From positions 1 to 64,000 of the forward strand of contig JABDCA010000003.1 of NCBI GenBank assembly GCA_013288345.1: a stretch of DNA of 64,000 nt, written 5' to 3'. Within the stretch, counting starts at the first letter, position 1; each line of letters starts with the position of its first letter. Position numbers and translations under genes: made by a program. The notes beneath the pieces are model-generated. The model worked only from the letters and a program-made list of their open reading frames with translations. It was not told the origin of the DNA and did not search any database. Shown here piece by piece: positions 1-43,407 of this stretch. Origin of the DNA: Bacteroidota bacterium (GTDB taxonomy: Bacteria > Bacteroidota > Bacteroidia > JABEUT01).

Positions 1-2586
1 CAAGCCGAGGTTAACATTAAAAAGAATGATAGCAGCAAGGTAATAACCCTGAACTTATTATGCGAGAAGCTATACAAGGCAGGGCAGGCAGAAAAAGCGC
101 TGGAGATTGGCATAGATGCCTTAGATCTTGCAGCTAAGTTATCATACACACGTGGCGAAGCGGATGCGTTTAGAAGTGTGGGGATGATATACTATGTTCA
201 GTTAAAATATACTGATGCACTACGAAACTATACACTTGCCTACAAGGCATACGAGCTGCTGAAAGATACCTTTGATATGGGTTTTATGGCCACACGCAAG
301 GGCCTGGTGTATTTCCGGCAGGCCAATTACCCGCTGGCTTTGCAGGAAGATTTCCTTTCGCTTAAGCTACGCGAGGCTGTAAAAGATTCAGCCGGAATGA
401 CATCTACCTATATAAACCTGGGTAATGTTAACTCAGAACAGGCTAATTATACCGAAGCCCTTAAGTACGAGAACATGGCGCTGACCCTGAGCATACGCCT
501 GAAACGCAAAATGAACGAATCGGCTTGCTGCATCAATATTGGCGGAATTGAAGTATACCTGAAAGAATACCAGAAGGCGCTCGATAATTTCAAAAAAGCG
601 CTTGTTATGGGTGCCGAGCTGAAAGATGACGAAGGCATAGCTATAACATACAGCGATATTGGTGAGGTGTTTCACGATATGAATAAAGATGATTCAGCCA
701 TGGTGTACTATACACGTTCGTTGTTGATGAAGCATAAGATCGGGTATAAACGCGGTTTTGAGTCTTCGTATATTGAGATGTCGTATATGTATAATGCCCA
801 TAAGCAGTTTTTATTGGCCCGTATTTATGCCGATAGCGCACTAAAGGCATCTATGAAAACAGGTAGTATTAACTACATAAGTATGGCCTATGCTGAACTG
901 GCACATGCCGATAGTAGCCTGGGTAACTTTAAGCTGGCCTTTGAAGAGTATGTGCATTCAGTATCATGGAAGGACAGTTTGACAAACCAGGAGAATACCA
1001 AAAAAAGTGTGCAGGCTGCGATGAATTATGAGTTTGATAAAAAACAAGCCATTGAAAAAGCGCAGCAGGATAATAAAGATGCTATTGCCGAACAGGACAG
1101 GAAGAAACAGATGATAGTGCGCAATTCGTTTATTGCAGGCTTTTTGCTGATGATAGCGTTGGCGTTTTTCATTTTCAGGGGCTTAAGGCAAAAGCAAAAA
1201 GCCAATGAAATTATTACCCGCCAAAAGGAAGAGGTAGAGAAACAAAAACTGGTGGTAGAAGAACAAAAGGCAAAGGTAGAGGAGCAAAATGTATTTATTG
1301 AACACCAAAAATCTATTGTAGAAGAAAAGAACAAAGATATAACCGATAGCATACGCTATGCATCGCGCATACAGCAGGCATTGCTTACCACCGAAGATTA
1401 TATTGGCAAGCACGTAAAAGAATATTTTATTCTGTTTAAACCGCGCGATATTGTCAGCGGCGATTTTTACTGGGCCTTTAAAACCCCCGAACTGCAAGCG
1501 GGTGGCGATAACGGAAATAGCGGGCACGGAACAACCGGCGCTGCATTAGCTCCGTCGTTAAAAGAAAAAGCAATAGCATTTAAAAAGCGATCGACCGAAG
1601 CAGAGAAAATTGCATGGCATTTGCTAAAGGCTAATTCTGCCGGGTTTAATATTATAAGGCAACATGTTTTAGGGCAGTATATAGCCGACTTTGTGCATGT
1701 TCAAACAAAAACCATTATAGAAATTGATGGCGATGTGCAGGATTATTCAAAGGAAGAAGAAGCACAAAGGGCAGCATGGCTTGCAGATATGGGCTATGAG
1801 GTGCTGCGTTATAAGAGTGATGAAGTAGTTGGTAGCTCGTTGAAGTTTTTAGATAGTGTAGTAGCCAAACTACAGGACAAGGCGCTGAAAGCTTTTCCTG
1901 ATGGCAATGATACAACAGGGGCATTTTGTATTGCCTGCTGCGATTGTACAGGCCATGGTGTACCGGGTGCCTTTATGAGCCTGCTCAATATATCTATGCT
2001 GAACGAAACTGTGGTGGAGCGGGAGATACAAAGGCCGGACCTGGTATTGAACGATGTACGCGATAATATTATTAAGGCCCTTAACCCCGAAAAGGTAGAT
2101 ACCGAAAGCCAGGATGGTATGGATTGTTCGCTGGTTACATTCGATTTTAAAAATGGCATAATGCAGGCCGCCTGTGCCAATAACCCTGTGTGGATAATAC
2201 GGAATGGAGAGCGTCACACTGAGCCTGTCGAAGTGTCTACCTTACCTATAGATGGGCTTCGACAAGCTCAGCCTGACAATTTCTTCGAAATTGCCCCCGA
2301 CAAAATGCCTGTAGGCATACAGCATGGCGAGCAAAAGCCATTTACCCTGCACAACGCAAAAATAAGTAAAGGCGATTGCATATATTTGTTTACCGATGGC
2401 TATGCTGACCAGTTTGGCGGGCCTAAAGGAAAGAAGTTCAAGTACAAAACCCTGCAGGAATTGATAATGAACAATGCGCAATTACCAATGAAGGAGCAGA
2501 AGACTATTTTAAATAAAACATTTGAAGATTGGAAGGGCGGATTAGAGCAGGTGGATGATGTATTAATAATAGGAGTTAGAATTTAA
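1..2586 (+). CDS. TPR / coiled-coil / SpoIIE-type PP2C phosphatase, 5' truncated, with inserted DUF559 domain
   Basis: The reading frame is open from the first base, so the gene starts upstream of the window; the GTG at 178 is only an internal valine. N-terminal tetratricopeptide repeats (about 1-990) are followed by one transmembrane helix (about 1111-1185), a charged coiled coil (1190-1345) and a C-terminal SpoIIE/PP2C serine phosphatase. Metal-binding motifs GDFYW (about 1458) and CDCTGHGVPGA (about 1938) and the terminal DDV are present. In this family TPRs sense partners and the phosphatase dephosphorylates serine/threonine of anti-sigma-factor-antagonist-like proteins. About 130-140 residues of a DUF559 nuclease-like domain separate the first two phosphatase motifs, which lie about 15 residues apart in the neighbouring paralogue. 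A second in-frame insertion is a palindromic repeat (2212-2277). Whether the phosphatase still folds is unknown. Confidence 0.9.
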   Translation, partial: QAEVNIKKNDSSKVITLNLLCEKLYKAGQAEKALEIGIDALDLAAKLSYTRGEADAFRSVGMIYYVQLKYTDALRNYTLAYKAYELLKDTFDMGFMATRKGLVYFRQANYPLALQEDFLSLKLREAVKDSAGMTSTYINLGNVNSEQANYTEALKYENMALTLSIRLKRKMNESACCINIGGIEVYLKEYQKALDNFKKALVMGAELKDDEGIAITYSDIGEVFHDMNKDDSAMVYYTRSLLMKHKIGYKRGFESSYIEMSYMYNAHKQFLLARIYADSALKASMKTGSINYISMAYAELAHADSSLGNFKLAFEEYVHSVSWKDSLTNQENTKKSVQAAMNYEFDKKQAIEKAQQDNKDAIAEQDRKKQMIVRNSFIAGFLLMIALAFFIFRGLRQKQKANEIITRQKEEVEKQKLVVEEQKAKVEEQNVFIEHQKSIVEEKNKDITDSIRYASRIQQALLTTEDYIGKHVKEYFILFKPRDIVSGDFYWAFKTPELQAGGDNGNSGHGTTGAALAPSLKEKAIAFKKRSTEAEKIAWHLLKANSAGFNIIRQHVLGQYIADFVHVQTKTIIEIDGDVQDYSKEEEAQRAAWLADMGYEVLRYKSDEVVGSSLKFLDSVVAKLQDKALKAFPDGNDTTGAFCIACCDCTGHGVPGAFMSLLNISMLNETVVEREIQRPDLVLNDVRDNIIKALNPEKVDTESQDGMDCSLVTFDFKNGIMQAACANNPVWIIRNGERHTEPVEVSTLPIDGLRQAQPDNFFEIAPDKMPVGIQHGEQKPFTLHNAKISKGDCIYLFTDGYADQFGGPKGKKFKYKTLQELIMNNAQLPMKEQKTILNKTFEDWKGGLEQVDDVLIIGVRI
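1540..1900 (+). other. In-frame DUF559 (Vsr-like endonuclease) domain inserted in the phosphatase
   Basis: The inserted segment has the hallmarks of DUF559: TEAEKIAWHLL, then RQHVLGQYIADF, then IIEIDGD, then a YEVLRYKSDEV end. The D...E-x-D spacing (ADF...IEIDG) resembles the PD-(D/E)xK nuclease core, so the catalytic residues look intact. The insertion lies in the loop between GDFYW and DCTGHG. Both junctions carry a similar string (acaaccggcgc near 1532, acaacaggggc near 1912), encoding TTGA on each side, which could be a remnant of the insertion event. No intein splice motifs are seen. Confidence 0.85.
2212..2277 (+). repeat. Palindromic REP-like element inside the phosphatase coding sequence
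   Basis: The arms cactgagcctgtcgaag and cttcgacaagctcagcctga are inverted repeats with few mismatches. The same family occurs between genes at 9371-9426, with half copies near 10534 and 40284. Here it is read through in frame as about 22 extra residues (containing EPVEVS and GLRQAQP) absent from the paralogue at 2591-4903. Confidence 0.85.
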
Positions 2587-2590
2587 TAAA

Positions 2591-4903
2591 ATGGACAAGG
2601 GACAATTGACAAGGGACAATTTTGAAAAACAGGAAAGAGTTTCTGTGCGATTTAACTGCCCACTGTCTATTATCAACTGTCAATTGTTGGTTTTGCTTTT
2701 CACTTTTAGTTTTTCACTTTGTTCAGCTCAAAAAGCAACTATCGATTCTATTACTCATGTTTTAAAAACAGAACTTAAAGACGACAGCAATAAAGTAAAT
2801 ACGTTAAATGCCCTGAGTGGTAAGCTTTGGCGTATGGATAAGTACGATACTGCCATTATATGTGCTAACAATGCCCGCACACTTGCAGAGAAGATTGATT
2901 TTAAAAGGGGAATTATAAAAGCATGGCGCAACTGCGGTTCGGCATATTATAACCAGGGAAATTATTTTAAATCGCTCGAAAGCTATACCAAATCATTGGC
3001 GCTTAGCCAGCAGATCGGCGATCAAGCCAGTACAGCTCTTGACCTGGGAGGTGTAGCACGCGTTCAGTATATACAGGGTAATTACCCTAATGCAATGGAC
3101 TATTATCTGAAGGCATTGACTATAAACCAAAAACTTGGCGATAAAGATGCTATTGCCAGCAACTATGGCAATATGGCTAATATTTATAATTCACAAGCCA
3201 ATTACGATCTGGCCATTGAATACCATAAAAAAGCAATAGATATTTATACGGAAACAGGTAATAAAAACGGAATAAAAAGAGGTTTTGAAAACATATCAAT
3301 CTTGTACAGGGACGAAAAAAAATTCCCTGAAGCCATAGACTATGAAGCTAAAGCATTGCAGGTCTGTCGTGATATGAAAAGCGAAAAGAATATAGCAACC
3401 GCTTATAATAATATGGGGGAGGTATATAATAAGCAGGGTAATTACTCAATGGCCATGATATATTACGATAGCGCCATTAATCTTAACCGTAAAAATGGCA
3501 ATATAAAAAGTGTGAGCATAAACCTTGTTAACCAGGGTGAAGTATACAGACTGCAAGGTAATTACCCTAAAGCGTTGCAGTATGATAATGAGGCGCTTGC
3601 TATAAGACGACAGTTGGGTGATAAAAGTACCCTGGCTTATGCCTATGATGATATTGGTGAAATATATATACAGGAAAAAAAATATGACATAGGCCGGAAA
3701 TATACCGATTCAAGTATTATGTTTTCGAAGGCCATTGGTGAAAAATTTTTGGTGAAGGATGGCTACCACGACCTTGTTGAAATAGACAGCGGTGTGGCTG
3801 ATTACAAAACAGCTTTTGAAGATTATAAGAAATATGTTGCCTATAGCGATAGCCTGCTGAATGATGCCAACACCCAAAAAACAGTGCAGGCTGAGATGAA
3901 TTACGACTTTAACCAAAAGCAGGCAGCCGAAAAAGCCGACCAGGATAAAAAAGATGCCATTGCCGAACAAGACCGTAAAAGGCAGGCCATAATACTATAC
4001 TCGGTGCTGGCAGGGTTTTTACTGTTAATGGCGCTTACCTTCTTTATATTTCGCGGGCTCAGGCAAAACCAAAAAGCCAACCGTATAATTACAAAGCAGA
4101 AAGAAGAAGTGGAGCAACAGAAAGCCATGGTGGATGAAAAGAACAAGGAAATATTAGATTCTATTAATTATGCCAAGCGCCTGCAAGATGCTATTCTTCC
4201 TCCGCTTGCACTCATCAAGCAGCACTTGCCGGAATCGTTTGTGTTATATAAGCCCAAAGATATTGTTGCCGGAGATTTTTACTGGATGGAAGTAGTTAAA
4301 GCCCCATCGGGTGATATTGTTTTAATTGCCGCATGCGATTGTACAGGCCATGGCGTACCGGGTGCATTGGTAAGTGTGGTTTGTAGTAATGCACTTAACC
4401 GCACCGTAAAGGAATTTAAAATAACGCAGCCGGGTAAAATATTAGATAAGGTACGCGAACTGGTGTTAGAGACATTCGAGAAGAGTGAAAGCAATGTGCA
4501 GGATGGTATGGATATATCGTTGTGCTGCCTCAATACCAAAACCGGCGAAGCACAATGGAGTGGGGCCTATAATTCGTTGTGGTATGTGCAAAACAACGAA
4601 CTGAAAGAAATAGATGCCGACAAGCAACCTATAGGAAAGAATGACAGGCCTGTACCATTCAATACACATAATGTAAAATTTGAAAAAGGCGATATACTCT
4701 ATTTGTTTACCGATGGTTATGCCGACCAGTTTGGTGGGCCTAAGGGCAAAAAGTTCAAATACAAAACCCTGCAGCAATTGATAATGGACAATGTTCATTT
4801 AACAATGCCGGAACAAGAAACCATTTTAAATAAAACCATTGAAGACTGGAAAGGCGGCCTGGAGCAGGTAGATGACGTGCTTATAATGGGAATACGAGTT
4901 TAA
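2591..4903 (+). CDS. TPR / coiled-coil / SpoIIE-type PP2C phosphatase (second paralogue)
   Basis: 770 residues. The N-terminus is a signal sequence ending near residue 47 (LCSAQ), then TPR repeats (about 60-400), a transmembrane helix (about 465-488), a coiled coil and a SpoIIE/PP2C domain with GDFYW (about 561), CDCTGHGVPGA (about 582) and DDV (about 760). It follows the first phosphatase by 4 bases, so the two are probably co-transcribed. The last 90-100 bases of the two phosphatase domains are almost identical, pointing to recent duplication or gene conversion. This copy has the standard phosphatase domain without the DUF559 insert, so it is the better candidate for an active enzyme. The first 35 codons are written in intergenic-type repeat (gacaattgacaagggacaat), yet no later in-frame ATG would keep the signal peptide. 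Confidence 0.9.
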   Translation: MDKGQLTRDNFEKQERVSVRFNCPLSIINCQLLVLLFTFSFSLCSAQKATIDSITHVLKTELKDDSNKVNTLNALSGKLWRMDKYDTAIICANNARTLAEKIDFKRGIIKAWRNCGSAYYNQGNYFKSLESYTKSLALSQQIGDQASTALDLGGVARVQYIQGNYPNAMDYYLKALTINQKLGDKDAIASNYGNMANIYNSQANYDLAIEYHKKAIDIYTETGNKNGIKRGFENISILYRDEKKFPEAIDYEAKALQVCRDMKSEKNIATAYNNMGEVYNKQGNYSMAMIYYDSAINLNRKNGNIKSVSINLVNQGEVYRLQGNYPKALQYDNEALAIRRQLGDKSTLAYAYDDIGEIYIQEKKYDIGRKYTDSSIMFSKAIGEKFLVKDGYHDLVEIDSGVADYKTAFEDYKKYVAYSDSLLNDANTQKTVQAEMNYDFNQKQAAEKADQDKKDAIAEQDRKRQAIILYSVLAGFLLLMALTFFIFRGLRQNQKANRIITKQKEEVEQQKAMVDEKNKEILDSINYAKRLQDAILPPLALIKQHLPESFVLYKPKDIVAGDFYWMEVVKAPSGDIVLIAACDCTGHGVPGALVSVVCSNALNRTVKEFKITQPGKILDKVRELVLETFEKSESNVQDGMDISLCCLNTKTGEAQWSGAYNSLWYVQNNELKEIDADKQPIGKNDRPVPFNTHNVKFEKGDILYLFTDGYADQFGGPKGKKFKYKTLQQLIMDNVHLTMPEQETILNKTIEDWKGGLEQVDDVLIMGIRV

Positions 4904-42799: not shown

Positions 42800-43407
42800 T
42801 TAATTGCCACGACCTTTAGGTCGTGGGTATAAGAAATTTAACCCAATAAGGGCTTTAGCCTAATTAGAAAGCAATGCCCCGCTTGCTTTAATAAAATTAT
42901 TGTATTCCTCGCTAAAGGTCTTTTTTTTGTGGTGTTCTTCTTGTTTTAAAATATAGCGTCTCACCTTATCAGTTACCGAAGAACTTACCGATAAAGCAAT
43001 GTATTCATCTTGCCACTCAAATTTTGTATTGATTAATTGTTGTTTATTTATCCAGTTAGAAGCTTCTCCTTTGATTAGCCCAATTGTTTTTGCAATTGTT
43101 TGGTCAGCACCAAGAGATATGAGTAGGTGAATATGATCTGCCACGCAATTATGGGTGTCGATATAAATGTTTTTCTTAATGCTGTTTTCTTTTATGTGTG
43201 CAAGAAGAAGTGGTTTCAGCTCTTTTGAAATTAAAGGTTTGCGATTTTTAGTTGACCAAATTGCATGAATCATTATTTTGCAGTAAGGCATGGAATTACA
43301 GGTATTTGTGATGGAATCAAATTTATGAAAAATAAAGATGTATGAGATTTTGGCTAAAGCCTATATAGGAATTAATTCATCCACGACCTAAAGGTCGTGG
43401 CAATTAA
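42800..43407. mobile_element. IS200-type element bounded by REP-like hairpins
   Basis: Ends are perfect inverted copies: ttaattgccacgaccttta at 42800 and taaaggtcgtggcaattaa at 43389-43407; each end itself folds as ccacgaccttt/aggtcgtgg. A second inner pair (ggctttagcc 42851, ggctaaagcc 43352) sits just inside. The transposase gene fills the middle. Two 130-base elements with the same ends but no gene occur at 47803 and 51523, and a lone hairpin at 43455. This is the arrangement of REP-associated tyrosine transposases and their REPIN-like derivatives. Confidence 0.85.
42860..43291 (-). CDS. IS200/IS605-type (REP-associated, Y1/HUH) transposase
   Basis: 143 residues. Motifs of the Y1 transposase family: start KIMIHAIWSTKNRKPLI, the HUH metal-binding motif VADHIHLLISL (about 50-60), FEWQDEYIALSVS, and the nucleophile-tyrosine helix VRRYILKQEEHHKKKTFSEE (about 108-127). 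It cleaves single-stranded DNA at a hairpin and joins covalently through the tyrosine. The gene's end overlaps the inner palindrome of the element. All key residues appear intact. Confidence 0.9.
   Translation of the reverse strand: MPYCKIMIHAIWSTKNRKPLISKELKPLLLAHIKENSIKKNIYIDTHNCVADHIHLLISLGADQTIAKTIGLIKGEASNWINKQQLINTKFEWQDEYIALSVSSSVTDKVRRYILKQEEHHKKKTFSEEYNNFIKASGALLSN

Follow-up and report, generated by a model that had tools for sequence, protein, structure and literature searches.

An in-frame DUF559 nuclease domain in a Bacteroidota SpoIIE-type phosphatase is probably an old copy of a mobile, non-splicing element

The window analyzed here, a stretch of 64,000 nucleotides from a Bacteroidota bacterium, opens within a gene for a SpoIIE/SiaA-type phosphatase whose catalytic domain is interrupted by a DUF559 nuclease-like domain. 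The contig begins at base 1 of the window, and the reading frame is open at its 5' end, with the N-terminus missing. The relevant features are as follows.

1–2586, plus strand: host ORF of 861 residues with TPR repeats, a coiled coil and a SpoIIE/SiaA-type phosphatase domain carrying the DUF559 insert
1459–1473, plus strand: GDFYW, phosphatase metal-binding motif 1, to the left of the insert (from the sequence)
1474–1923, plus strand: in-frame insert, its extent and ends approximate (from comparison with the orthologue L004)
1483–1509, plus strand: probable left terminal palindrome, decayed, encoding KTPELQAGG where relatives have KAPLNPPIG or QPPQPPEGG (from alignment)
1558–1872, plus strand: DUF559 domain, residues 520–624 (Pfam PF04480, E 2e-21)
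1687–1740, plus strand: putative active site, with Asp at 1687–1689, Glu-x-Asp at 1720–1728 and the conserved His replaced by Gln at 1738–1740
1888–1923, plus strand: probable right terminal palindrome, decayed, KAFPDGNDTTGA here and KVLPNGEDLGGA in the orthologue L003
1918–2580, plus strand: remaining phosphatase domain, starting with CDCTGHG (Pfam PF07228)
2591–4903, plus strand: adjacent paralogue without an insert (Pfam)

The frame is read through the whole insert with no internal stop codon. The DUF559 domain scores 76.4 bits against a curated Pfam cut-off of 20.6, the SpoIIE domain is recognized at residues 640–860, and the PP2C fold and metal-binding motifs of the host are kept on either side of the insert. 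GDFYW and CTGHG lie 167 residues apart in the window ORF versus 24 in L004, an uninterrupted orthologue from the same genus, and the spacing is likewise short in the adjacent paralogue. A sequence-only reading of this DNA had proposed that a DUF559 domain lies in frame within a SpoIIE phosphatase and stretches the motif spacing relative to the paralogue; both points are confirmed. A second same-genus orthologue, L003, carries the insert, and the absence of DUF559 from L004 shows that not all relatives have the domain. A predicted structural model of the insert is of low confidence, mostly 38–77 per ten residues.

Within the domain, the Asp is encoded by GAC at 1687–1689 and the E-x-D by GAA at 1720–1722 and GAT at 1726–1728. 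The His that follows E-x-D-G is Gln in the window (CAG, 1738–1740) and Arg in L003, and is present in all 49 stand-alone copies and in 87 of the 90 in-frame copies described below. Across the in-frame set E-x-D is found in 90 of 90 and the Asp in 89 of 90; the copies without His are those of the window, L003 and L037. The earlier proposal that D...E-x-D is intact thus holds for both motifs, but besides the His the window copy has changes at other conserved positions. By profile it is a DUF559 domain; judged from its residues, its activity is doubtful.

To survey related copies, a profile built from four interrupted phosphatases was run against 395 genomes of the class, 133 of which gave DUF559 matches. 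The loci fetched for study were mainly matches in long open frames, among the matches listed, together with earlier loci. Merging ORFs with identical DUF559 cores left 96 distinct ORFs, 95 of them with flanks long enough to score. In-frame copies within longer proteins number at least 90, in at least 70 genomes and at no fewer than 27 labelled host sites, a count that is not a rate, because copies were fetched largely for their long open frames. Unrelated Bacteroidota genes do carry DUF559 in frame, a check that the sequence-only reading had suggested. The insert is internal in 77 of the 90 and otherwise lies at the ORF end or in a poorly placed host. Leucyl-tRNA synthetase (LeuRS) is the most frequent host, with 32 copies at two sites, followed by MetH (9, two sites by label), Acs (8), SpoIIE (7 interrupted ORFs, repeating the window architecture), RecG (5, two sites), IleRS (4), RecJ (3), HisA/HisF-type proteins (3, N-terminal), MutS, IcmF and TsaB (2 each) and single cases that include TsaD, a CaiB-type CoA-transferase and HsdR. 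Host identity was checked with NCBIfam or Pfam for one member of each named family, and stretches of the host profile flank DUF559 on both sides in Acs, MutS, MetH, LeuRS, RecG, IleRS, IcmF and TsaD. When 12 genomes with an interrupted leuS were chosen and searched for leuS, every match (E up to 1e-60) in all 12 fell in the interrupted ORF, and the interrupted enzyme therefore presumably works. Outside the class, among 296 genomes sampled across the phylum, in-frame copies occur in MetH (L310–L313) and HsdR (L323, L325 and L327). A separate contig search for related loci returned mainly phosphatase matches, with a DUF559 insert in SpoIIE in none of those examined. One copy of unusual arrangement, L037:1–3306 (G006:C33), has DUF559 fused in frame ahead of an ATP-pyrophosphatase-like protein (named by reading), with the junction peptide ERPPPAPSCEERVERKK; its conserved Asp and His are both missing.

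Better-preserved copies carry C-rich/G-rich hairpins on both flanks, inverted relative to each other. An intact left repeat consists of a C-rich tail and a pyrimidine/purine hairpin, for example GCCTCACCCCYAACCCCTCTCC-N4-GGAGAGGGG. When the left flank was aligned to the reverse complement of the right, with a score above 15 taken as a pass, 70 of 95 DUF559 units had terminal inverted repeats in the MITE/IS sense. The pass counts for comparison were 29 of 367 for other ORFs in the same set of loci (p 6e-38) and 27 of 710 for random windows (p 2e-56). Cross-locus flank pairs passed in 23% of cases because the ends of one element look much like those of another. Stand-alone DUF559 genes behaved similarly (28 of 43 domains, from 40 regions hand-picked among the matches listed, versus 12% of cross-pairs). 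In 49 nuclease units with an inverted-repeat score of 18 or more, the dinucleotides just outside the C-runs were mutually reverse-complementary in 57%, versus 15% after permutation (maximum of 1000 permutations, 31%), as if insertion occurred at the middle of short palindromes; because the units were preselected, this result is a lead only. The terminal dinucleotides of 26 solo doublets, described below, did not clearly exceed the permuted level.

The window copy (score 9) and L003 (score 11) are among the 25 of 95 units that fail the inverted-repeat test. Their ends still resemble the palindrome-encoded peptides of relatives; the 15 ORFs of 96 that have a clear form of the right-end peptide belong to six host families. 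The sequence-only reading had also noted that both junctions encode TTGA (Thr-Thr-Gly-Ala). These stretches, at 1531–1542 and 1912–1923, do not form a junction repeat: the right one sits where relatives read LGGA, inside the decayed right palindrome, the left one is set some 20 residues into the insert, and neither is found in L003. TTGA was accordingly rejected as a target-site duplication. Having lost its recognizable ends and one conserved His, the window copy is read as retained rather than active or mobile, probably an old relic with decayed ends.

The same repeats also occur without a nuclease. The left repeat of the recJ element, allowing up to two mismatches, was found 61 times in seven genomes of one genus and not at all in the reversed control. 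Thirty contexts of this repeat comprised 2 recJ DUF559 units, 12 tight inverted doublets, 3 repeats with a more distant partner and 13 without a partner by pattern; in 22 of the 30 the repeat falls within a frame that runs for at least 200 residues without a stop, some at the frame edge, and cargo other than DUF559 was seen in none. At the recJ site itself, the DUF559 unit is present in three genomes of this genus and the site is unoccupied in three others; G220 (L255) has, by eye, a solo repeat pair whose right half contains about 25 extra bases and escaped the search pattern. A solo pair also occupies the site of the window's insert in the SpoIIE gene of L135. For both SpoIIE and recJ, three states of one site are thus known: unoccupied, holding a solo doublet, and holding a nuclease unit. 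A solo-doublet finder recovered 27 doublets, 26 with tails, and is too strict for a census; 9 of 26 doublet lengths were divisible by three, which is no enrichment. At the DNA level no clean empty site was obtained, the recJ site and one solo insertion falling in variable loops that are too divergent for a target-site duplication to be read; in the comparison of this solo insertion with empty sites, 3 of 5 loci were readable by pattern (L306 and L307 gave none).

More generally, a single consensus palindrome was found in 51 of the 395 class genomes and in no reversed control, and its presence is associated with DUF559: 38 of the 51 genomes with the palindrome have DUF559 matches, versus 95 of the 344 without it (odds ratio 7.7, p 3e-10). 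Among genomes with at least five palindrome copies, 14 of 16 have a DUF559 match, the exceptions being G127 and G157, which belong to the 13 palindrome-bearing genomes without a match. Conversely, 95 DUF559-bearing genomes do not have this particular repeat. A short hairpin consensus had no match in the window, and the consensus palindrome itself, which is longer, had none in the window's genome. Beside DUF559 inserts in leuS, the consensus palindrome occurs in tandem at a spacing of 105 bases (35 codons), five times in the leuS region L185 (G156:C49:109197–109650) and twice each at G126:C7:59042–59180 and G212:C119:6639–6777.

In a quick tree of 108 phosphatase rows, from which L121 (not a true insert) and L083 were left out, the six distinct interrupted phosphatases require six changes and do not form one clade (p-AU 0.0006); the nearest neighbor of the window phosphatase is L004 (80%), which has no insert. 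In the DUF559 tree, likewise quick, with few columns and many open forks, the window insert groups with full support with those of L003, L006 and L209; the inserts of L044, L149 and L228 are placed elsewhere, with an Acs insert. Together these placements indicate related elements at one site in distant phosphatases and the arrival of at least two element lineages. Of the in-frame copies, 79 fall in one clade of 82 rows (support 93) and the other 11 are scattered among stand-alone copies. Host-site labels, mapped for 88 of the 90 in-frame rows, need 38 changes on this tree against a shuffled minimum of 61, and much of the spread is therefore vertical. By these trees, elements tend to keep their site within a lineage and yet have switched host many times. 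The insert dN/dS in 26 same-site pairs ranged from 0.05 to 0.51, at or under 0.25 in 25 of them, and the host part was lower than the insert in 21 of 26. Pairs were restricted to unsaturated dS, with many dS values above 1, and do not include the window–L003 pair. These codon comparisons indicate that the nuclease of in-frame copies is under purifying selection.

Based on these data, the family is read as a mobile, non-splicing, in-frame element that encodes its own nuclease, and the window insert as an old copy of it, with a probability of roughly 0.7; its movement and DNA cleavage are what we infer from the pattern. The diversity of unrelated in-frame hosts, the inverted palindromic ends, the solo derivatives and the independently occupied sites all favor the earlier suggestion of a selfish nuclease domain that would move without splicing. 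An intact element would comprise a left terminal repeat, a linker, the DUF559 frame and an inverted right repeat, all readable in the host frame. Its nuclease, of the PD-(D/E)XK (Vsr/DUF559) type, would be carried in frame in protein genes and never spliced out, so that the host protein would gain an extra domain of about 150 residues in a loop and stay functional. The nuclease may cut or nick the target, the hairpin ends or both, after which transposition or homing-like repair would copy the element into the break, and selection would remove insertions that disrupt the frame or the host. The best reading of the solo repeats is that they are a short form of the nuclease-bearing element; solo doublets would arise by internal loss of the nuclease or by its action in trans. 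A bolder version, held tentatively and at somewhat less than even odds, is that this is a new Bacteroidota class of mobile element in which a Vsr-like nuclease spreads in frame into the loops of essential proteins, repeatedly at the same sites and, as the terminal dinucleotides hint, at the centers of short palindromes that the nuclease cuts.

Three other explanations can be weighed against the same observations. The repeats could be moved by another enzyme, such as a REP-associated tyrosine transposase (RAYT), with DUF559 as a passenger between two repeats. Y1_Tnp genes are present in 15 of 18 genomes examined, solo repeats in genus g16 far outnumber DUF559 units, and 13 of the 51 repeat-bearing genomes are without a DUF559 match, two of them with at least five copies. 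Against this, G025, G141 and G181 have in-frame DUF559 and no Y1_Tnp match, and the 30 repeat contexts held no alternative cargo. Moreover, a loose C-rich hairpin pattern matched one of seven Y1_Tnp loci (L343), in a poorly complementary string, and four of the seven (L344 only just, the locus in the window clearly) had other inverted repeats above shuffles. A RAYT is consequently disfavored as the mover of these repeats, and the passenger explanation as a whole appears unlikely.

Less likely still is a domesticated or regulatory role, in which the phosphatase would have acquired DUF559 to serve the host, for instance by binding DNA or sensing DNA damage. The window and L003 copies do stay in frame with most conserved residues kept and their recognizable ends gone, and inserts in other hosts are under purifying selection; domestication could hold for single old copies. 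The same kind of insert is nevertheless found in many unrelated enzymes, a number that disfavors the new fused regulator that the sequence-only reading had offered as its alternative; the phosphatases nearest to that of the window (L004) are without it, and in L135 a solo doublet can fill the same site. Finally, many of the genomes, including the window's, are fragmented drafts, in which an assembly or frame error might fuse two genes. That account is scarcely credible here and was rejected: the window has a single open frame without an internal stop and phosphatase homology on both sides of the insert, L003 has the same architecture, and in-frame leuS cases occur in the one-contig genomes G141 and G315.

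The favored reading, a mobile element that keeps its nuclease in the host frame, can be set beside several known systems. Inteins and homing endonuclease genes also bring an in-frame nuclease domain into conserved genes, at sites that recur, and the present inserts share this property. No splicing (HINT) domain was reported when the window host and ten further hosts were scanned with Pfam; the insert is therefore expected to remain part of the mature protein and is not filed as an intein. The same scans found no Y1_Tnp domain in the element.

Rickettsia palindromic elements, as described in the available excerpts of two papers (PMC10969869, PMC3733652), are in-frame palindromes in many unrelated protein genes whose products are presumed functional, much as the solo repeats lie in stop-free frames in most contexts here. 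They measure about 150 bp, and those excerpts mention no enzyme-bearing in-frame form, whereas here the nuclease between the repeats is part of the host protein. REPtrons, in the portion of PMC3733652 that treats them, likewise pair dispersed palindromes with a gene bracketed by inverted copies, but they encode a tyrosine (HUH) transposase, whereas the present element has a DUF559 domain of PD-(D/E)XK type, and its enzyme-bearing form lies in frame in host genes. The COG4636 family, also of PD-(D/E)XK type, has been proposed to be selfish and to multiply in genomes; the accessible part of that report describes separate genes without recurrent neighbors, and neither palindromic ends nor in-frame placement (PMC551604). 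In Caulobacter, the DUF559 protein VsrA is named in a partial text as the cause of SOS induction in cells without the ScmA methylase of YGCCGGCR (PMC12907096). This suggests that a DUF559 protein may damage DNA, and on this basis the present nuclease would cut DNA, with the difference that VsrA, as that text presents it, is a separate protein of its own and DUF559 is here a domain inside other enzymes.

The element is therefore closest in behavior to the Rickettsia palindromic elements and closest in design to REP/RAYT pairs. It is called new because it shows the full defining features of none of the element classes tested; a stricter judge could class it with in-frame palindromic elements. 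In the open-access literature searched, by title and the start of the abstract, no description of in-frame DUF559 elements was found. One palindrome class, the CGTC class, is apparently without a dedicated transposase in the excerpt of PMC3733652, and DUF559 is a candidate enzyme for in-frame palindromic repeats. On the bolder version of the reading, the solo form would be comparable to the Rickettsia in-frame palindromes and would hint at the type of enzyme that moves them. If the favored reading is true, a self-encoding element would persist as an unspliced domain in enzymes such as LeuRS, IleRS, MetH and RecJ, working proteins that carry a parasite in their fold, and may account for odd long loops in Bacteroidota proteins.

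Several further arrangements were observed. In IcmF of G208 (L168), full repeat doublets lie on both sides of the DUF559 unit in what looks like a nested insertion. Neighboring DUF559 pairs occur in opposite orientation in L270 and on the same strand in L278, where they are nearly identical, and in L301. A stand-alone DUF559 gene with inverted palindromic flanks, L069:4157–4561, lies on a contig titled Candidatus Nomurabacteria, and the arrangement may thus extend beyond Bacteroidota. Elsewhere in the window, a Y1_Tnp (RAYT-type) gene at 42941–43279 on the minus strand is bracketed by a separate inverted repeat (CCACGACCTTTAGGTCGTGG, GGCTTTAGCC) that scores 39 against a shuffle maximum of 18. 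The phosphatase ORF itself has a second in-frame insertion at 2213–2277, an inverted pair of CACTGAGCYTGTCGAAG repeats (HTEPVEVSTLPIDGLRQAQPD) that is not seen in L003 or L004; with up to two mismatches allowed, this repeat is matched 53 times in the genome of the window and once in the reversed control.
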